This document shows, one piece after another, positions 28,432 through 62,740 of a DNA stretch of 64,000 bases. This stretch comes from Lachnospiraceae bacterium (lineage in GTDB: Bacteria; Bacillota; Clostridia; Lachnospirales; Lachnospiraceae). The stretch lies in assembly GCA_017521605.1 (NCBI GenBank), contig JAFXCD010000009.1:62001-126000 (forward strand). Reading direction: 5' to 3'. A program made the translations under genes and the position numbers. A model generated the notes under the pieces. It was given only the letters and a program-made list of their open reading frames with translations, ran no database searches and was not told where the DNA came from. The number at the start of each line of letters is the position of its first letter. Positions within the stretch are counted from its first letter, which is position 1.

Positions 28432-28785
28432 CTACATCAGCAATTCCTTATACAACTTTAGCTTCACCTTATTGAGTGAAATGTCCACCTCCGCCTTATC
28501 TAACATCATGCCTACCAGCAACAGCTGGCTGCTTTCGCCGGGGTCGCCGCTTCCTGCCAACTCCCAGTAGATATCCTCTACACCGTCGTTTTTAGGCTCA
28601 CTTAAATATTCCTTTAAACGATGTAGTCCATATTCACAGTCAGGCGCATAATCGCTTTCCATGGTGATGGTTACATGATTTCCCTTACGATCAATATTGG
28701 TACTAATGTGCTCCGCTCCCACGCTGAAAAAGAACATGGTTAGTTCTTCTATGATTTTACCCACCTTTTTTTCTTCATGCGTCAT
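28432..28785 (-). CDS. small uncharacterised protein at the end of the HerA/DUF1576 operon
   Basis: 117 residues, soluble, acidic, with no signal or membrane segment. Notable stretches are MFFFSVGAEHISTNIDRKG and YWELAGSGDPGESSQLLLVG. I do not recognise the family. It overlaps the DUF1576 gene by 4 bp (ATGA), so the two are translationally coupled and probably functionally linked. Confidence 0.75.
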   Translation of the reverse strand: MTHEEKKVGKIIEELTMFFFSVGAEHISTNIDRKGNHVTITMESDYAPDCEYGLHRLKEYLSEPKNDGVEDIYWELAGSGDPGESSQLLLVGMMLDKAEVDISLNKVKLKLYKELLM

Positions 28786-30074
28786 TTGTCCATTCCTCCC
28801 CTGTTCCCTCTACGGCTTTCAAAACGTTTTATGAAGCTTTCAGCAAAGGGCACCATGATAATGGCCACCCAGCCACAGCTGAAACCATTGTTATATAAAT
28901 TTAGTCCCCCATACATATCATTGGTACAGGTCACAATAGCCACATGCAAAAAGCCTGCCAAAAGGCCTGCTACCGGACCAAATTGTCCGGCGATAGGTGC
29001 AATCCCCATGGAAAAAACAGCTGCCAGCTGTATAGCAGGGGTGGTTATTTCAAAAACATTCACAAAGGTAGCCAGGAAAACGCCTAACAGCACCGGAGCA
29101 TAATTACGTAAATGTACACCGAAGGCGCCAAATCCATATACTGTCAAAATGGCTCCCACCACCGGACCGGACAAATCTCCGCCCACAAGCAGGATAAAGG
29201 TAGTGGCCATAATTCCTACCATGCCCATATTTAAGAAGGTAGCTCCCACACCATCCATGTACACAAAATCCGCCACCGCACGACCGGGATGACGCATTAT
29301 CTTAATCCAGCCCCTCCACTGTCCCTTACTAAGAATCAGTCCATACATAAAGGTTAACAGGAAATACCCAAAACAGGCAATCATAAGTGGCAACGGCACA
29401 CCTTCCTTCCAAATCAGTGTGGGCTCAGATTCCAAACCAAAGGAACGTAGTACACAAACCATGACAAAGGCTACGATTCCTGCGGAAAAGCCCACATTAA
29501 ACAGATTGTAACCCATATGCATGGAGGCTGTATGCATGGACAATGGTGGCAATATAAAACCGATTAGGATACCTACCACAATGGCCACTGCCATGTTCAC
29601 CCATTTACTGTATGGCAGAATATAGATGATTTCTGTCACAAGCGGCGCCAGACAGGTACCAAACAGCGCTGTATAAATATATCGATTCAGCCGGGTATGA
29701 TGAAACTTGGCGTACAAAAAGGTACCCAGTAAAATGGGCCACACATTTAAAGGGTTCTTGCCAAAAAAAGCGAAACCTGCATTCATAAACAATGCCGCCA
29801 TGGTTAATCCTGTAAAGGTGGTTTTTTCTATCAGCAAAAGTAAATATCCCAACAACAATACGAACCCTGCATTAAAAAATGCAGCACCATACCCACCCAG
29901 CTCAAAATAATCCGTAATTAACGCATCTCTGGAGGACACGATTTTAACCATGCCCTCCAGAATCCTTATGGGAGTATCTGTGAGAAACGCAGCCAGCCAG
30001 AACAAAGAAACGGTAAACACCACAAAAACCTGTATCTCCTTCCCAGCCATCCTTTCCAAAAAGGGTTTCTTCAT
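28782..30074 (-). CDS. DUF1576 family multi-pass membrane protein
   Basis: 430 residues with roughly ten hydrophobic segments. It matches DUF1576 by the AFFNAGFVLLLGYLLL, MNAGFAFFGKNPLNVWPI, HMGYNLFNVGFSAGIVAF and FGAFGVHLRNYAPVLLGV stretches: repeated small-residue motifs with N-x-G, suggesting internally duplicated halves and a transporter-like fold. Function unknown. It starts 18 bp after the HerA-like gene. Confidence 0.82.
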   Translation of the reverse strand: MKKPFLERMAGKEIQVFVVFTVSLFWLAAFLTDTPIRILEGMVKIVSSRDALITDYFELGGYGAAFFNAGFVLLLGYLLLLIEKTTFTGLTMAALFMNAGFAFFGKNPLNVWPILLGTFLYAKFHHTRLNRYIYTALFGTCLAPLVTEIIYILPYSKWVNMAVAIVVGILIGFILPPLSMHTASMHMGYNLFNVGFSAGIVAFVMVCVLRSFGLESEPTLIWKEGVPLPLMIACFGYFLLTFMYGLILSKGQWRGWIKIMRHPGRAVADFVYMDGVGATFLNMGMVGIMATTFILLVGGDLSGPVVGAILTVYGFGAFGVHLRNYAPVLLGVFLATFVNVFEITTPAIQLAAVFSMGIAPIAGQFGPVAGLLAGFLHVAIVTCTNDMYGGLNLYNNGFSCGWVAIIMVPFAESFIKRFESRRGNRGGMDK

Positions 30075-30092
30075 ACAACTTCCTTTCTTAAA

Positions 30093-31604
30093 CTAAAACT
30101 TAAACAGGGTACTTAAGATACCTCTACCCAAGGTTGCTCCCACATTGCCACCCAGCTTCTTGCCGAATTTACCACCGATGGATTTACCTATGGTGTTGCC
30201 GATTTCACGGCCAATGGTACCACCTGCGGAATTGGCTACACTCTTTGCCAGCTTCTTAGACTGCTTCTGCCTCTCTGTAGCAGCCTTCTGCTCCTGAGCA
30301 GTTTTGGCCACATCTGCTGTTCTTCTCTGTAGGAACTCATAAGCAGAATCCCTGTCATAATAATCATGATATCTGGTATAAAGGAGATTGCCCTTAATCT
30401 GGCTGTCTCTCTCTGCGTCAGTAATAGGTCCCATCTGGCTCTGAGGGGGCAGAATGGTAGTCTTTTTCACGATGGTAGGCACACCCTTCTCATCCAATAC
30501 GGAAACCAGTGCCTCACCAATACCTAAATTCAGCAAGGTCTCATAAGTATCAAACTCCGGATTCTCGCGGAAAGACATGGATACTGCCTTAGCTGCCTTC
30601 TGTTCTGCAGGAGTATAAGCATGTAACGCATGCTCCACCTTATTACCCAACTGCGCCAGTACCTCATCCGGGATATCTCTGGGGTTCTGTGTGATAAAGT
30701 AAATACCCACACCCTTGGAACGAATCAACTTCACCACTTGGGCAATACGCTCTAACAGTGCCTTAGAAGCATTGTCAAAAAGCATATGTGCTTCGTCAAA
30801 GAAAAATACCATCTTAGGCTTTTCCATATCTCCTGCCTCAGGCAGGTTCTCAAAAAGCTCACTCATCATCCACAATAAGAAGGTGGAATACATGGTAGGA
30901 TTATTAATCAGCTTCTGACAATCCAGCACCTGAATCTTCCCCTTACCGGTATAGTCTGTTCCAAACCAGTCTGCAATATTCAGCGCCGGCTCTCCAAAGA
31001 ACTGATCACCGCCCTGACCTTCCAGTGCCACTACTGCACGAATGATGGCTGCCAGACTCTGCTTAGACATATTACCATACTGCAGGGAAAGGTCCTTGGC
31101 ATATTCTCCTGCAAACTGCAGAAGTGCCCGTAAATCCTTGGTATCAATCAAAAGTAAATCATTATCATCTGCCACTTTAAAGAGGATACTCATAATATCT
31201 GTCTGGGTATTGTTTAAACCCAGGATACGACTTAACAGTAAAGGTCCCATTTCTGTAATGGTAGTACGAAGGGGCAGACCCTTTTCCCCGTATACATCCC
31301 AGTAAGTGGTGGGATACTGATCCAGCTGAAAGCCCAGCTTGTCCAGGCTCATGGCCTCCACACGCTCCTGCACATTCTTATTCATGGTGCCCATATTGCA
31401 CATACCTGCCAGGTCACCCTTTACATCTGCCAGAAAAACCGGCACTCCGCAGGCACTGAAGGACTCTGCCATCACCTTAAGAGTCACCGTCTTACCGGTA
31501 CCCGTAGCTCCCGCAATCAATCCGTGACGATTGGCCATCTTCGGATAAATATATACCTTTTCCTCTCCTGACATACCTACCAATATTTTCGAATCCTGAT
31601 ACAT
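30093..31604 (-). CDS. HerA/FtsK-like ATPase (DUF853, YjgR type)
   Basis: 503 residues. Walker A is AGATGTGKTVTLKVMAESF near residue 33, Walker B is KMVFFFDEAHMLFD near 270, followed by IYFITQNPRDIPDEVLAQLG. The C-terminus is glycine-rich (GGTIGREIGNTIGKSIGG). This is the bacterial DUF853 branch of helicase HerA-like ATPases, of unknown role; HerA relatives pump DNA or work with nucleases. Here no nuclease is adjacent: it lies 14 bp after four paralogous membrane-protein genes and before DUF1576. Confidence 0.88.
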   Translation of the reverse strand: MYQDSKILVGMSGEEKVYIYPKMANRHGLIAGATGTGKTVTLKVMAESFSACGVPVFLADVKGDLAGMCNMGTMNKNVQERVEAMSLDKLGFQLDQYPTTYWDVYGEKGLPLRTTITEMGPLLLSRILGLNNTQTDIMSILFKVADDNDLLLIDTKDLRALLQFAGEYAKDLSLQYGNMSKQSLAAIIRAVVALEGQGGDQFFGEPALNIADWFGTDYTGKGKIQVLDCQKLINNPTMYSTFLLWMMSELFENLPEAGDMEKPKMVFFFDEAHMLFDNASKALLERIAQVVKLIRSKGVGIYFITQNPRDIPDEVLAQLGNKVEHALHAYTPAEQKAAKAVSMSFRENPEFDTYETLLNLGIGEALVSVLDEKGVPTIVKKTTILPPQSQMGPITDAERDSQIKGNLLYTRYHDYYDRDSAYEFLQRRTADVAKTAQEQKAATERQKQSKKLAKSVANSAGGTIGREIGNTIGKSIGGKFGKKLGGNVGATLGRGILSTLFKF

Positions 31605-31618
31605 AATATACCTCCTGT

Positions 31619-32743
31619 TTATTTTTTCTTTGTCTCTATATTAATGACACTCCAGTCATTATAAAAATCTGCTTCCATAATGCCCTGAAGGGGTCTGGCC
31701 AGTTGCAGCACTATGTTTTCCGAACTAAAACCAATTTGGTCTCCCAAATCCCTATCCAGGAAAACCCTATAAGACATATCCAGATACATATAGTCCTTAT
31801 CTTCCCGAAAATCTATAAACCAGAAATTCTGAAATTCACAATTCACTACATCTGCATGTTCCTGTAAAAATCCTGCCATATCACAGCTGATTAAATCACC
31901 CACATCCTCTACTCCATCGGCATATATGAGACGCAGTACTTTGTTGTTTAAGATACCGAGAAACTTCTCCAAGCAAAAATCCGATACCCTTTCATGCAAC
32001 TGGCCGGTTACCTTTCGGGAAACCAAACGCCTAATCTTCAAACGCTTACATTTCCCCTTTACCGCAATGGTAATTACCGTTCCCACTACAAAGGGAAAAA
32101 GCATCACGAGTATACCAAAAATAACAAAAAATCCCTCAAAATCAAATGTCGGTGTAAACAATATATTTAAAACCAAAACTACTAAAACAAATAAAAATAG
32201 GAGAGACATAAGGCCACATAGAAATAATAAAATGTTGAGACAAAGTAAAAGGCCCTTTCCTATAAAATCCCCGTATTCCCCACTTCTCCCATACCATTCT
32301 ACAAATTTTGACGTATACATGGAAGATACCTTATTGCCTTCTCCCGGTTCCTTCAAAAAATAATATGAAATCCACGGCATCTTCTGAGGGCTTAACATCC
32401 TTTGATGTCCACGCACATAAGTTGTTTTTCTGTCCCACTTTTTCCTTAAACAGCCAATATGATAATTTCCCTCTTCTAAAACTGTCTGACTGCCGGAATT
32501 CATAGTATCTCCCTGGCTTCCGGGCTTCTGTCCCCAGTCCATACTTTGTCTGTGCATCTGTAGCTTACGGGTCTGTAATCGTTTCCTTTGGGCATTTACA
32601 CCCTCTAAAAATGCTTCCGTTACCGGAAGTTGTGCTACGCCATCCGGGCTGACAGGGTGACATACCTGAGTGGTTGACAGAATACTGTCTGCATCACGCA
32701 TATCTTGCCTTATTTCATTCCACTCTACCAATACATTTTCCAT
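31619..32743 (-). CDS. uncharacterised membrane protein, paralog A of a four-gene tandem family
   Basis: 374 residues. About 155 soluble N-terminal residues (with QRKRLQTRKLQMHRQSMDW and GCLRKKWDRKTTYVRGHQR) are followed by a two-helix membrane hairpin (about 163-195 and 203-228) and a soluble C-terminal domain. That domain carries the family signature: DFCLEKF, LIYADGVEDVGDLISCD, VVNCE, NFWF, YMYLDMSYRV, LDRDLG and PLQGIMEADFYNDW. No known family is recognised. It is most like paralog B upstream. The ATG at 32743 follows GAGGGGAAG. Confidence 0.85.
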   Translation of the reverse strand: MENVLVEWNEIRQDMRDADSILSTTQVCHPVSPDGVAQLPVTEAFLEGVNAQRKRLQTRKLQMHRQSMDWGQKPGSQGDTMNSGSQTVLEEGNYHIGCLRKKWDRKTTYVRGHQRMLSPQKMPWISYYFLKEPGEGNKVSSMYTSKFVEWYGRSGEYGDFIGKGLLLCLNILLFLCGLMSLLFLFVLVVLVLNILFTPTFDFEGFFVIFGILVMLFPFVVGTVITIAVKGKCKRLKIRRLVSRKVTGQLHERVSDFCLEKFLGILNNKVLRLIYADGVEDVGDLISCDMAGFLQEHADVVNCEFQNFWFIDFREDKDYMYLDMSYRVFLDRDLGDQIGFSSENIVLQLARPLQGIMEADFYNDWSVINIETKKK

Positions 32744-32758
32744 ACGTTTCTTCCCCTC

Positions 32759-33889
32759 TTATTTCTCATGTGTCTCTATCTTTACCACGCTCCAATCATG
32801 ATAAAGATCCTCCGACATAATACCTTGTATGGGTTTCATTAATTGTAGCATAATGGTTTGCTTCTTTCGTTCTATCCGTCCACCCAGATCTCTGTCCAAT
32901 CGCACTCTCAGGGTTACGTCCATATACATGTAATTTCCATCCTCCCGGAAGCCGGTGAACCAGAAATTTAATGTTTCACAGTTTACGACATTGGCGTGAT
33001 TTCTTAAGAAACCAGAGATGTCACAGCTGATAATATCTCCTACCTCCGTTACTGCATCTGCGTAATAAAGCCTCTGTACCCTGCTGCATACAATACTGAT
33101 AAACTTCTCTATACAGAAATCTGCCACTTTTTCCCGAATGGCTGTTATTACTCTATGGGAATCAATACGCCATTTACGCCAAAGCTTGAATTTACTTGCC
33201 AGCCAGGTACCTGTAACAGAAAAAACCACACACCACACAAGACATCCCAACACAATGGGCGCGTAAGACCTGATACTTGGTATCAAAAGAATAATCAGCC
33301 AAAGGGGCACCTGAACGGCACTAAGGAGCCATCCTACAATAGAAAGGAATATGGTGGTTATTTGAAGTGCTCTCCCCGGATATTTGCCGTTTATTATTCT
33401 ATACTCATCACTTCTTCCATACAGCTCCACCAGGTTAATGGTATCTATAGAAGAGATTCTGCATTCTTCCCCGGATTCCTTTATCAAATAATAATGTAAC
33501 CAGGATGTATTATTAAAAGAGGACACTTTCCTTTGATTTCGCATATAAGTGGTAATACGTTTCCAGTGTTTACGTAAGCAGCCTATTTTGTACTCTCCAT
33601 CTATATACATCTGACCACCTTGTGCAAAAATACCTCCGCCAAACCTGGGCGATTGCTGTGCCCAATCCAGACTCTGCCTATGTATCTGGAGATTACGGGA
33701 ACGTAATCTTTTCCGCTGCGCCGTAATTCCTTGCAGAAATTCTTCTGTTACAGGTACCTGCCAGGACTCCTGATTACCGTCAAGGCTGATAGGAAGGGAT
33801 ACTCCCGTACTTGCAAAAATATGATTTATTCTTTCCATGTCCTGCCTTGTTACACAGAGCTGGGCAGGCTGTGTTAATTCTTTTTCCAT
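32759..33889 (-). CDS. uncharacterised membrane protein, paralog B
   Basis: 376 residues with the same layout as paralog A: soluble N-terminus (QRKRLRSRNLQIHRQSLDW, GCLRKHWKRITTYMRNQRK), two membrane helices (about 175-203 and 208-230), and the C-terminal signature DFCIEKF, LYYADAVTEVGDIISCD, VVNCE, NFWF, YMYMDVTLRVRLDRDLG, PIQGIMSEDLYHDW. B and A are the closest pair in the array, suggesting a recent duplication. Its start overlaps the end of paralog C by 16 bp. Confidence 0.85.
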   Translation of the reverse strand: MEKELTQPAQLCVTRQDMERINHIFASTGVSLPISLDGNQESWQVPVTEEFLQGITAQRKRLRSRNLQIHRQSLDWAQQSPRFGGGIFAQGGQMYIDGEYKIGCLRKHWKRITTYMRNQRKVSSFNNTSWLHYYLIKESGEECRISSIDTINLVELYGRSDEYRIINGKYPGRALQITTIFLSIVGWLLSAVQVPLWLIILLIPSIRSYAPIVLGCLVWCVVFSVTGTWLASKFKLWRKWRIDSHRVITAIREKVADFCIEKFISIVCSRVQRLYYADAVTEVGDIISCDISGFLRNHANVVNCETLNFWFTGFREDGNYMYMDVTLRVRLDRDLGGRIERKKQTIMLQLMKPIQGIMSEDLYHDWSVVKIETHEK

Positions 33890-35037
33890 TTAAGGACCTC
33901 CATATTTTCTATATACCAATCCTCTGTCATAATACCATTTATAGGTCTTGTAAATCTTACCTTCACATACAATATGTTTCTCTTCACCTGGTTGCCCTGT
34001 TCTTTATTGGTGAGCCTTAGCATTTGCTTGATATCAATATACTGATTCTCTCCATCCTGGCCAAAATCCTGAAACCAGAAATTTAGTGTTTCACAATTTA
34101 TTACATAGGCATGGCGAAGTAAAAATGGATGCACATCAAAATTTACAAACTGAGCCACATGTTCCATACGCTCCGCATAAAATATACTTTTTATCCGATT
34201 CTGGGCCATGGACACAAAATCATTCATACAGAAATCCGAAATTGTTAATCGAATGTTTTGCAGTACCCGGATAGAAGCTCTTCTGTACTTATAAGAAGTA
34301 ATCTTTTTATAATCATATAGTACCAATGGGAATACACCACCAACACTGCTTAACCATAGCATAAGTGACAGTCCTAAAGCCATATAATCCAGCTTCCCCA
34401 AAACACATAAGATAAAGACAACATAACTTGACAAATGAATCAGTCCAAAGAATCCCAAAGCAAATAAGCTAAATCCTATTCCCAGCTTTTCCCGGTTCCA
34501 CTTTTTTTCATCCCAATAGTCGCAACTGCGATTATACTCTTCCGACTGTAACAGCACATCCTCTGCAGTAATCTGAAAGCTTCCATTCTCTGCTTCTTTA
34601 AAATAATAATCCTTCTGAATATTGTCCCAAAATGAAGTTCCCGGCCCCCACTTATAATGGGGTTTTTTGTAATAGGTAACAACACTCTTCATCTGTTTAC
34701 GCAAATGCCCTACCAGATTTCCCCCATCATAAATAAACTCCGGCTGCTTTGAAAATCTCTTAATACCACCCATGGATACCAGCCATTCTTCATGGGCTTC
34801 CATGTTTATATCCAGCTTCCGAAGCCTCTCTGACTGTAGTGTCAAACTTAACAGCATATCTTCTGTCAAACCCGGTGACGGTGTAAATACTCTTCCATCA
34901 TTTTCGTGACCACAAAACAGATTCCTGCTAGCCAGATATGTTGCCATGGCATTCAATACCTTCTGTTCCGTTTCAGAGGGTTCAACGATATTTTTATTTG
35001 ATTTATTGACAATTTTGTACTTTACTTCCTCTTCCAC
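33874..35037 (-). CDS. uncharacterised membrane protein, paralog C
   Basis: 387 residues and the most divergent in its C-terminus: DFCMNDF, IFYAERMEHVAQFVNFDVHPF, VINCE, NFWF, YIDIKQMLRL, PINGIMTEDWY. Two membrane helices lie near 195-220 and 225-250. The SCD residues conserved in A, B and D read NFD here. The start is placed at a GTG (35037) with AAGGA 6 bases upstream; an earlier GTG at 35064 lacks a site and would overlap paralog D. Confidence 0.82.
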   Translation of the reverse strand: MEEEVKYKIVNKSNKNIVEPSETEQKVLNAMATYLASRNLFCGHENDGRVFTPSPGLTEDMLLSLTLQSERLRKLDINMEAHEEWLVSMGGIKRFSKQPEFIYDGGNLVGHLRKQMKSVVTYYKKPHYKWGPGTSFWDNIQKDYYFKEAENGSFQITAEDVLLQSEEYNRSCDYWDEKKWNREKLGIGFSLFALGFFGLIHLSSYVVFILCVLGKLDYMALGLSLMLWLSSVGGVFPLVLYDYKKITSYKYRRASIRVLQNIRLTISDFCMNDFVSMAQNRIKSIFYAERMEHVAQFVNFDVHPFLLRHAYVINCETLNFWFQDFGQDGENQYIDIKQMLRLTNKEQGNQVKRNILYVKVRFTRPINGIMTEDWYIENMEVLKWKKN

Positions 35038-35050
35038 ACCTTGTTTCCTT

Positions 35051-36172
35051 CTATACTTCCACACTTGTCACATACCAGTCATGATAGAAATCCATGGACA
35101 TGATACTTTCTAATGGTTTCATAAAACGAAGCTTTACTATCAACCTCTTTCTTTTCATGCGCTTTCCCAAGTCGCCGGTCAGTAGTACCTTTTGTCGCAC
35201 ATCCATATACTGACAAGTATCATCCTGTGACATTCCTTCAAACCAAAAATCTATAGTTTCACAGTCTACCACATTTTCATAATCCTTCAAAAAGGAGGAC
35301 AAATCACAACTGACAAAATCTCCTATTTCTTCCATGCTGTCTGCATAAAAAATACGTTTCAGCCGGCTACTGGTCATAGCGATAAACTTCTCCATACAAA
35401 AAAGCGGCCATTGCTGTCGGATAATTTGCAAGGCTTTGTGGGACTTCCATCTATCTCTAAAGCGTACACCTTGTCGAATTATAAAGAGCTTTGTTACCCA
35501 ATCCATCCCGCAGAAACCGGCCATAATTAGGTAAAGTACAACCTCAAGATGACAAAATAGTTCTATCACACTAGTGATACAATAGGATACAAATCCTATG
35601 GCTACACCTGTTACTATCCACCAATAGAAGAGCTGTGCAATAAACTTTGCTTTTTCCTTTTTCAGATTCTGTTCCATAGGATATTCCTGTTCCCAACCAA
35701 TTTCAGTCCTTGGCACTCTCCTCTCAAAAGACAGTTTATTCCCTTCTTCCGGCTCCTGCCGCATGGTATAGTAGTGCCAGCTTTTGGCTTTCCATCGGTC
35801 AATTACCTGGTGCCCTCGACTATATTCCAAAGTATGTTTTGTCAGCTTCTGCAAAACTCTTACCCGGAATGCTCCATCCTGCCAAATCTTTTCATTTTGT
35901 ATAAATTGCAGTTCTTCATCCTTAGTTTTGTAAAATTCATCCTGCTCATAAATCTTAAGCGTCAGTCCCTGTTTCTTTAATCTCTTCTGTTGCATCAGCA
36001 ATGCATCCACAATCTCCGGACTGACTCTTTTTTGAAATTCTTTCCAATCCGGTTCTTCTATTCGGTTTTCCAGCAATTCACTCTTGCTAATTCTGTAGGA
36101 TGTGATTGTGGCAATCAATTCCCTTTCTTCTATGTTCCGCATTTCTATTTCAGGGTTATTATTATCAGACAT
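35051..36172 (-). CDS. uncharacterised membrane protein, paralog D (first gene of the operon)
   Basis: 373 residues. It has the family pattern: N-terminal QQKRLKKQGLTLKIYEQDEF, VRVLQKLTKHTLEYSRGHQ, two membrane helices (about 180-208 and 213-235), then LFCMEKF, IFYADSMEEIGDFVSCD, VVDCE, DFWF, YMDVRQKVLLTGDLG and PLESIMSMDFYHDW. The start at 36172 has AGGAGAGG upstream. A possible promoter lies at 36339-36344. Confidence 0.85.
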   Translation of the reverse strand: MSDNNNPEIEMRNIEERELIATITSYRISKSELLENRIEEPDWKEFQKRVSPEIVDALLMQQKRLKKQGLTLKIYEQDEFYKTKDEELQFIQNEKIWQDGAFRVRVLQKLTKHTLEYSRGHQVIDRWKAKSWHYYTMRQEPEEGNKLSFERRVPRTEIGWEQEYPMEQNLKKEKAKFIAQLFYWWIVTGVAIGFVSYCITSVIELFCHLEVVLYLIMAGFCGMDWVTKLFIIRQGVRFRDRWKSHKALQIIRQQWPLFCMEKFIAMTSSRLKRIFYADSMEEIGDFVSCDLSSFLKDYENVVDCETIDFWFEGMSQDDTCQYMDVRQKVLLTGDLGKRMKRKRLIVKLRFMKPLESIMSMDFYHDWYVTSVEV

Positions 36173-36413: not shown

Positions 36414-36457
36414 CAAAAAAGACAGCCACCCGCCGCCTTTTCAAGCACAGGTGTCTG
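36414..36457 (-). terminator. likely terminator after the cytidylate-kinase-like gene
   Basis: Minus strand: AGACA-CC pairs with GG-(TGGC)-TGTCT in an imperfect GC-rich stem, followed by six T. It begins 16 bp after the stop at 36473. Confidence 0.6.
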
Positions 36458-42203: not shown

Positions 42204-42566
42204 TTAACCATCTATGTTGTCCACAAAGTTCTTTGCATCATAAAGAGACATTCCGGTCAGCTCACGTACCAGCTTAATGGCCTGAATATCCTGACCTTTC
42301 GCCTTCATAGCTCGTACCTCATCCGGCAAATCTTGTGGAATTTGAGGTGCTTTCGCTTCCAATTCCTGTCGCTTTTCCTCATCCTCTCTATCTACCTTCC
42401 AATTATACACAAAGCTTACCACTAAAAGGAGCGCTGTGCCAATACCCAGAACGCCTCCCACATCATTACCATCCAGTAAGGCCCAAACACTATATGCAAT
42501 AAACAGCACAGTAGCAATAAGAGTTAATACATATTTTTTAGTCTTTTTTTTCTTACCTTTTTTCAT
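42204..42566 (-). CDS. membrane protein with a ribosomal L7/L12 C-terminal-like domain
   Basis: 120 residues. A lysine-rich start (KKGKKKKTKK), two membrane helices (about 12-30 and 36-55), then a soluble tail with DEVRAMKAKGQDIQAIKLVRE and LTGMSLYDAKNFVDNI, the fold of the L7/L12 C-terminal domain. In small membrane proteins of this type the role is unknown. The start at 42566 has AAAGGAG upstream. Confidence 0.8.
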   Translation of the reverse strand: MKKGKKKKTKKYVLTLIATVLFIAYSVWALLDGNDVGGVLGIGTALLLVVSFVYNWKVDREDEEKRQELEAKAPQIPQDLPDEVRAMKAKGQDIQAIKLVRELTGMSLYDAKNFVDNIDG

Positions 42567-42660
42567 GCTGGATACTCCTTTATAAGACTTCTTTTTCACA
42601 TCTATTTTATGCGAAAATCCCAGATTTGACAAGCCCTCTGCGACCGTCTTCTTTCACATC

Positions 42661-61342: not shown

Positions 61343-62740
61343 TTATATTAATTCAAATGATCTCAAGCTTACGTTACCGGGACCACGATAGGTAATGTAA
61401 ATGGCCTGCTTGCCATCAGGGATACTGATGGGTGAAGAATATTCTTCCCAAACATTGGCATTCTCTACAGTAAGTTTAGCCAGCACCTCGCCATCCCATG
61501 AGGTCTTGATTTCAAAGGTACCACTGCCATAACCACGTACCCAGATTTTAATTTCCTTTACGCCCTGACAGTCGAAATATTTAAAGCCTGCTGTGGCTGA
61601 ATTGGTAATGTTTGCCACATAGCCCAATTCTTCGTCGCCATCTCTGCCATCCTGCATAACCTTGGGAGCATGGGCATCACCGATATACGCAGAAGGCTTG
61701 TCGTAGAACAGGTTACATGCCAGATAAGCAGGGTATTCGCCCTTGCCTTCCAAAGGTCCGCCGTTCAAGCCGCAGGAGGTGATTTCCACCTGAGGAATAG
61801 AACCATCTGCCAGGATTTCAATCTTTTCCGCACAACCCTGTCTGCTATACCAGGTACCATTGGTCTGACGATGATAGAATATGTACCAATCATCCTTAAT
61901 CTGTACAATACTTCCGTGATTGTTTGCACCATAAGCCATGGGCATATCTGCCGGCTTGTAGGTATCGATGTGCATATCACAATTGCTGACGATGACGCCA
62001 CCATATACAAAATCCTTGGTAGGATTCTTACTGGTTGCATAGCAAAGCTCGTGCATTACCTCGGAAGAATATATGAAATAATAGGTGTCTCCCACCTTAC
62101 GGATGGAAGGTGCCTCAAAAAATGCATGCTTTTCGAAGCCGGTACCTGCGGAATATTCATAACCCGGTGCCACAAAAACAGGCTCTTCGATAATAGTCAA
62201 CATATCCGGACCAAGTACAGTAGCCATAGCACCATGTCTGGACTTGTCACCTCTGCCACAGAAACCGGTGTAAAGATAAGTTCTATCGCCCTCTGTTAAT
62301 ACACCAGGGTCAAACTGAGGCTCATCTCCGGGTCTGTCACCCAGACGTGTACCGTCTTCATAATGTACATAACCATAGAATTCATAACGTCCGGCAGGTG
62401 TATCACATACAGCTACGGATACCACAGATACATGGTCCAGTACATAATACAAATAATATCTGCCATCCGGACCTATGGTTACATCCGGTGCATAAAGACA
62501 CATCTTGCCGTCCTTGTTAAGAGGATCCTCGTTACGGGGATAAATTACGCCTTCGTAGCGCCAGTTGCCCAAATCATCCACTGGTGCAGACCAGCATACA
62601 TAATCACCCATACAGAATACATAACCATTGTAAAAATCATGGGAACCGTATACATATACTCTGTCTCCGAATACGTAAGGTTCTCCGTCGGGAATATACT
62701 CCCATGATGGCAAATAAGGATTAAATGCCTGTTTCTTCAT
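61343..62740 (-). CDS. GH43 family arabinosidase/xylosidase with a C-terminal CBM6-like domain
   Basis: 465 residues. The five-bladed GH43 domain (about 1-320) shows the base Asp region [20 protein letters not shown], the middle Asp in [19 protein letters not shown] and the acid Glu in [20 protein letters not shown]. The C-terminal 125 residues resemble a CBM6-like beta-sandwich ([20 protein letters not shown]). No signal peptide. It removes arabinose or xylose units from oligosaccharides. Its start overlaps the GH31 gene by 20 bp and has AGGAGG upstream. Confidence 0.92.

Follow-up and report, generated by a model that had tools for sequence, protein, structure and literature searches.

A fast-diversifying tandem array of predicted Tim44/NTF2-like membrane proteins without zinc ribbons in a Lachnospiraceae bacterium

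The Tim44/NTF2-like domain is familiar from protein import into mitochondria, and both Tim44 and PARC6 dock partners while held at a membrane. Bacterial forms of the domain that carry zinc ribbons and are linked to SPFH proteins seem little described in the literature that we searched, a passage on YdjG of Bacillus subtilis aside: in the excerpts available to us, YdjG is given two zinc ribbons, an NTF2-like fold and a membrane segment (PMC11237479), and its zinc ribbon and the pspA-ydjGHI operon are treated in a second paper (PMC9239133). Here we describe four tandem genes, the array, in a 64,000-nucleotide stretch of DNA from a Lachnospiraceae bacterium (positions 62,001 to 126,000 of contig JAFXCD010000009.1, assembly GCA_017521605.1), which we refer to as the window. 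We conclude that the array encodes a previously undescribed protein family, a variant of Tim44/NTF2-like membrane proteins, and what stands out most is how fast it evolves and that its copy number varies. In their order of reading, the four genes are:

35051-36172, minus strand: paralog A, first in the array; 373 amino acids, with an N-terminal soluble domain, a membrane hairpin, a predicted C-terminal Tim44/NTF2-like domain and no CxxC
33874-35037, minus strand: paralog C, second in the array; 387 amino acids from GTG 35037; the most divergent, NFD replacing SCD
32759-33889, minus strand: paralog B, third in the array; 376 amino acids
31619-32743, minus strand: paralog D, fourth in the array; 374 amino acids

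With paralog B as the query, the other three were recovered from the same genome at 47, 33 and 30% identity (E-values 1.7e-95, 2.9e-50 and 7.5e-37, respectively), and no fifth copy appeared there at an E-value of 10 or better. The four window proteins have 39 invariant columns in common. A preliminary description of this DNA had reported four consecutive paralogs of 373-387 amino acids followed by a HerA-like ATPase, a DUF1576 protein and a 117-amino-acid protein, with the paralogs packed at -16 to +15 bp; all seven frames and the spacings were borne out by coordinate. The motifs that it listed (FC, YAD, SCD, V(V/I)(N/D)CE, FWF and IMxxDxY) are present in our alignment, where paralog C has YAE instead of YAD and is also the paralog said to lack SCD. 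Uneven divergence with one closest pair had likewise been claimed, and we find that pair to be the 31619 and 32759 genes (D and B), at 46% identity and with the shortest tree path. As to the further statement that the family is unrecognised, it holds for databases, since the paralogs gave nothing credible in Pfam, NCBIfam, PADLOC or PHROGs, but the proteins are recognisable as Tim44/NTF2-like. A sequence search of PDB with the paralog profile gave no match up to an E-value of 10. Weak Pfam matches (DUF2085, DUF4752, PKAT_KLD and SARG) were discarded, all being far below cut-off.

The family is traceable through larger relatives in the Lachnospirales. A search of 61 genomes with paralog B returned two distant proteins, of 541 and 589 amino acids, that have the N-terminal domain, hairpin and C-terminal domain in common with the array and carry in addition two CxxC...CxxC ribbons, the first preceding the hairpin and the second following the C-terminal domain; Pfam ribbon models match these ribbons below cut-off. 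Profile searches placed relatives in 17 other genomes among 299 of the family and in eight others among 138 of the genus, one of the eight being the sister genome that also carries an array; a weak match within the genus, in genome G432, is a frame of 82 amino acids. Frames of at least 400 amino acids make up 21 of the 25 family frames that were read, each of the 21 with four or five CxxC pairs, and the four shorter ones (L068, L072, L074 and L123) were left out of the ribbon-type profile and the first tree. Eight cysteines are invariant in the 17 of these 21 proteins that were aligned, and CxxC pairs are absent from all ten array proteins (four in the window, six in the sister). When compared with hhalign, the ten array proteins matched the 21 ribbon-type proteins at 99.8% (E-value 3.6e-28) over 327 columns that take in the N domain, the hairpin and the C domain, and in the unrooted tree a branch supported at 100/100 has all ten on the same side. 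On this homology the array proteins are ribbon-less relatives of the two-ribbon Lachnospirales proteins, and the simplest reading is that both ribbons were lost before or during the tandem expansion.

Two further observations concern the wider family. A 329-amino-acid ribbon-less relative from another genus of the Lachnospiraceae (L072:8005-8994) would either have lost its ribbons independently or be a single-copy cousin of the array, the approximately unbiased (AU) p for its placement relative to the array clade being 0.25. In the ribbon-type family the profiles of the N-half and the C-half match each other at 95.5%, largely via the ribbon, and in the array at 0.2%; a unit made up of a beta domain and a zinc ribbon may have been duplicated within the two-ribbon proteins, giving one half on each side of the membrane hairpin.

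The ribbon-type proteins also connect the array to Tim44. The array C-half matched the ribbon-type C-half at 99.2%, and the ribbon-type C-half matched, at 98.5% over 160 columns, three Tim44-plus-ribbon proteins from other families of the phylum that all exceed the Pfam Tim44 cut-off (E-values 6.3e-17 to 8.7e-22). These three, which cover the C-terminal region, were drawn from matches in 21 of 299 genomes, most of which span only the ribbon or short parts. AlphaFold (AF2) models of paralog B (predicted local distance difference test, pLDDT, 81.5; predicted template modelling score, pTM, 0.80) and paralog C (pLDDT 80.9, pTM 0.81) both begin with a beta sheet and two helices, pass into a membrane hairpin of two helices, the second of them extended, and end in helices followed by four long strands, which is the layout of soluble N part, membrane hairpin and soluble C domain given in the preliminary description. 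In Foldseek searches the paralog C model matched 16 PARC6 chains (E-values 2.1e-5 to 9.5e-4; TM score to the target 0.62-0.73), ARC6 (1.1e-3 and 2.8e-3), mitoribosome chains that we take to be mL45 (5.9e-3 and weaker) and Tim44 (2fxt and 2cw9, about 0.05). The same kinds of entry were found with the paralog B model at 5.5e-3 and weaker, including the yeast TIM23 complex, VirB8 and TraM. NTF2-like conjugation proteins are among the best fold matches beside PARC6, ARC6 and Tim44, and the PARC6 and ARC6 domains presumably count as NTF2-like too. From these models the C-terminal domain is predicted to be NTF2-like, of the Tim44/PARC6 kind.

The sister genome (G385) is the only other of the 138 genus genomes with the locus, and its contig agrees over 18,011 compared bases with JAFXFO010000002.1 of Lachnospiraceae bacterium isolate RGIG6370, from sheep rectum. 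Its array has six genes in the order A, x, y, C, B, D, in which the window order is kept with two genes added, and the surrounding gene order matches that of the window: CitMHS transporter, cytidylate kinase, array, HerA, DUF1576, 117-amino-acid protein and Na/Pi cotransporter. The genome from which the window comes is an assembly of 3.8 Mb in 125 contigs (completeness 92.87, contamination 5.99), and because two separate assemblies have this layout a binning artefact is argued against. Beyond the sister, no further array was found in 138 genus, 299 family or 392 order genomes (overlapping sets), and a contig scan with a single peptide pattern matched JAFXFO010000002.1 only. The orthologs in the sister are:

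L125:2358-3500: ortholog of paralog A, 43.7% identity
L125:5758-6915: ortholog of paralog C, 32.4% identity
L125:6905-8014: positional ortholog of paralog B, 50.8% identity
L125:8032-9144: positional ortholog of paralog D, 41.2% identity

The tree pairs A with A' (99/99) and C with C' (100/99). Nonsynonymous divergence (dN) of the four array orthologs is 0.40-0.66, and the medians for 20 syntenic genes, one pair cut by the end of L118 having been left out, are 87.7% for identity and 0.077 for dN (dN and its synonymous counterpart, dS, by a simple counting method). Fifteen of the 20 are 83-96% identical and the other five 79.6, 76.8, 70.5, 62.9 and 44.5%; the HerA ortholog is conserved at 95.8%. 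The contrast in rate is about tenfold against nine hand-picked flanks (83.5-95.8% identical) and about sevenfold against the 20 syntenic genes, and differences at four-fold sites are alike (0.46-0.59 in the array, 0.35-0.61 in the nine flanks). For one syntenic locus, two congeners carry two-ribbon orthologs that are 92.7% identical, next to neighbours at 94.1, 83.6 and 73.3%. Within the array orthologs identity is 40-68% in the C-terminal domain, 25-53% in the N-terminal domain and 7-32% in the hairpin; besides the start, ten columns are invariant in all ten array proteins, and full-length frames are kept in all ten genes. Judged from the aligned sequences, the array is changing faster than almost all genes around it. 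Among the syntenic genes, a small protein at 42204-42632 (142 amino acids; L117:8061-8420 in the sister, 119 amino acids) is as variable as the array, at 44.5% identity between the sisters.

The gene preceding paralog C is A in the window and y in the sister, yet in both species its end (HDWYV) overlaps the start of C or abuts on it (window 35037-35064; L125:5736-5774). Such an arrangement would fit unit gain or loss through recombination at the conserved 3' ends. Composition was not decisive for a foreign origin: G+C is 0.38-0.42 in the array against 0.41-0.47 in nine window neighbours, and slightly lower in the sister array also (0.39-0.47 against 0.44-0.52 for the neighbours).

Several observations weigh against a fast-diversifying family of Tim44-like proteins. 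The array occurs in two genomes only. None of the four paralogs matches Pfam Tim44 (PF04280) above cut-off, the paralog B model has no Foldseek match with an E-value below 0.001, and the direct profile comparison of the array C-half with the three Tim44-ribbon proteins fails, at 1.7%, for which reason it is the intermediate family together with the fold that carries the assignment to Tim44. For B and D, orthology is assigned by gene order without support from the tree, and at 46% identity window D resembles the sister's B more closely than the sister's D. With respect to rate, five of the 20 syntenic genes are themselves below 80% identity, the gene at 42204-42632 has a dN of 0.41, equal to that of the slowest array gene, and synonymous differences are higher in the array and near saturation (proportion of synonymous differences, pS, 0.68-0.74 vs 0.47-0.68 in the nine flanks). 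No SPFH, PspA or TPM gene adjoins the array, the rest of the window not having been profile-searched for SPFH or PspA. Crude dN/dS for the array is 0.12-0.38, and the fast change could equal relaxed constraint.

Under relaxed constraint the array would be a weakly selected duplicate set, its ribbons lost, that is drifting. The missing ribbons and the change over the whole length would suit this, as would an array profile that goes unmatched in 129 of the 138 genus genomes and a small neighbouring gene that changes equally fast. However, full-length frames in 10/10 genes, C domains that stay 40-68% identical between orthologs, the ten columns invariant besides the start and a conserved promoter-like core (below) all argue for continued constraint, and we regard drift as an unlikely account. 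Another explanation is a conflict locus, where the paralogs would be membrane sensors or decoys facing a changing foreign partner (phage, bacteriocin or mobile element) that drives copy-number change and divergence. Copy numbers of four and six, a dN about seven times the median of the 20 syntenic genes and several duplications that predate the species split with all ten frames intact are consistent with such a locus. Yet the paralogs have no PADLOC or PHROGs match and no effector domain was found, crude dN/dS is below 1, and divergence runs along the whole protein, peaking in the hairpin (7-32% identity), instead of being confined to one exposed face; we find this explanation doubtful. That the ribbon-less adaptor array, within a core HerA ATPase operon, has become a recognition set that faces phages or tells self from non-self, or else a scaffold that switches partners, is in our view improbable as well.

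We considered whether the array belongs with the genes that follow it. These, together with two signals that precede the array, are:

30093-31604, minus strand: HerA-type ATPase, HerA_C family PF05872; 503 amino acids
28782-30074, minus strand: DUF1576 membrane protein; 430 amino acids
28432-28785, minus strand: protein without known family; 117 amino acids
36224-36252, minus strand: promoter-like site 5' of the array, TTGTCA-17-TATACT, the second hexamer preceded by TG; the sister genome matches its core at 27/31 positions
36421-36434, minus strand: hairpin and T-run resembling a terminator, with the cytidylate kinase gene on one side and the array on the other, in a region alignable in the sister genome

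Both family labels were confirmed by profile, HerA as a plain member of its family (PF05872, E-value 2e-201) and DUF1576 by PF07613 (2.7e-110); in PADLOC the ATPase matches the HerA and mad8 ATPase models. By family, the array neighbours are cytidylate kinase, CitMHS transporter, HerA_C, DUF1576, Na/Pi cotransporter and LytR. Spacings from A through C, B, D, HerA and DUF1576 to the 117-amino-acid gene are +13, -16, +15, +14, +18 and -4 nucleotides, the first becoming -14 if paralog C begins at an in-frame GTG at 35064 (396 amino acids), the counterpart of the first ATG in the sister frame, rather than at GTG 35037 (387 amino acids). Nearly all window genes lie on the minus strand, so the shared orientation of the array and its neighbours carries little weight; short gaps and a junction between array and HerA that is conserved at 19/20 positions in the two species are better evidence. 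The promoter scan as a whole was at chance level (21 sites found, 20.8 expected), and the site before paralog A is credible because it is conserved between the two species. By this layout the array, HerA, DUF1576 and the 117-amino-acid gene are one operon-like unit in both array-bearing genomes, and in the source genome HerA is probably co-transcribed with the array.

The preliminary description went further and proposed a hetero-oligomeric membrane machine of tandem paralogs coupled to the ATPase; spelled out, this would be a putative assembly of the four paralogs driven by HerA, with DUF1576 as a transporter part. The 14-nucleotide gap and conserved junction with HerA in both array-bearing genomes would agree with this, and VirB8- and TraM-type secretion subunits are among the weaker fold matches of the paralog B model, with weak, below-cut-off matches of HerA to VirB4-type models besides. 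The distribution of the genes largely fails to support it. HerA is present in 117 of the 138 genus genomes and the array in 2, and the 21 HerA loci that we read in other congeners (15 + 6; 6.7-19.5 kb each) contained no array, DUF1576 or 117-amino-acid gene; of these 21, 20 yielded the HerA frame itself (14/15 in the first set, where it was missed in L094). DUF1576 was found in 7 of 25 same-genus genomes, own included, and in all five loci read (L097-L101, fetched from nine other matches) it is followed by the 117-amino-acid gene with HerA not nearby; a literature search for DUF1576 found no paper. The conservation of HerA at 95.8%, when its supposed partners are at 32-51%, is also unexpected for a tight complex. 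The preliminary description had itself named paralogs, ATPase and DUF1576 occurring apart as evidence against its proposal and a neighbourhood survey as the way to see it, and that is largely what the survey returned, ribbon-type relatives included, which lie among unrelated neighbours. We consider a HerA-driven assembly very unlikely.

For the ribbon-type relatives a conserved neighbourhood was sought and rejected: ten genes from 8 of 20 loci belong to ten different families and another is a glucosaminidase, and the commonest neighbour clusters reach 4/20 loci at most (open reading frame picking failed for the family gene in 1 of the 20 regions, L070). Since HerA, DUF1576 with the 117-amino-acid gene, and the ribbon-type relatives occur apart, the seven-gene unit appears to be a place where three modules meet. 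A link between array and HerA special to this lineage is possible, HerA always being the next gene, directly 3' of the array, in the two array-bearing genomes. Most likely, HerA and DUF1576 are co-transcribed neighbours rather than fixed parts of a machine.

What the array might do is suggested by Tim44 proteins with zinc ribbons. Each of the three Tim44-ribbon genes in other genomes adjoins a gene that matches Band_7_1 above cut-off. One other gene in the array's own genome matches PF04280 above cut-off, in L192. At L192:6244-8494 (G000:C30, about 42.7-45.0 kb), separate from the array, a 469-amino-acid ribbon-bearing Band_7_1 (SPFH) gene is followed by this 254-amino-acid Tim44 protein, which has a C-terminal zinc ribbon. 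By analogy, the pairing of a Tim44-zinc-ribbon protein with an SPFH/band-7 protein, which is similar to what has been published on YdjG and the pspA-ydjGHI operon of B. subtilis, would be the nearest functional parallel to the array.

We favor the reading that the array is a lineage-specific, fast-diversifying tandem set of ribbon-less, membrane-tethered Tim44-like adaptors. Its family and evolution parts we hold with high confidence, and for the whole statement, function included, we judge the case to be evenly balanced. Two membrane helices and basic residues after the hairpin would put both soluble domains in the cytosol. The C-terminal domain would then be a membrane-held docking module for partner proteins or peptides, like Tim44 and PARC6, an analogy that we offer tentatively and with rather less assurance than the reading as a whole. 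The paralogs would have diverged toward different or changing partners, perhaps in a setting of envelope stress or membrane quality like that of the SPFH-linked Tim44-zinc-ribbon proteins.

One branch of the family lacks zinc ribbons, has expanded in tandem and changes at the protein level at about seven times the median rate of its syntenic neighbours. The contrast within one operon offers a natural test of what the Tim44/NTF2-like domain recognises in bacteria. The locus also illustrates how little can be concluded about a machine from tight packing beside a HerA ATPase.

Compared with known systems, the ATPase is of the HerA_C kind (PF05872), which in the 21 loci read elsewhere has neither array nor DUF1576 beside it, and conserved co-occurrence of ATPase and membrane partners, as in a HerA-driven secretion or conjugation machine, was not found. 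The intermembrane-space domain of PARC6 and ARC6 in plastid division, which we take to be a membrane-held docking domain, is the best fold match of the paralog C model; the biology is different, the likeness is one of fold, and sequence kinship is not claimed. To the Tim44-like family PF04280, where the profile chain and the fold lead, the array is alike in having an NTF2-like C-terminal domain in a membrane protein, but it differs in its two-helix hairpin, extra N-terminal domain, four to six tandem copies and lack of ribbons. The two-ribbon Lachnospirales family (for example L076, L077 and L119-L122) is homologous to the array over almost the whole length; it has eight zinc-type cysteines where the array has none, and it shows no tandem array, unrelated neighbours and a near-normal rate in the one syntenic pair examined. 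In the SPFH-linked Tim44-ribbon/YdjG system, with YdjG compared by description only, ribbons and an SPFH neighbour are present that the array lacks. By analogy the array may work like this system, yet it is not a member of it.

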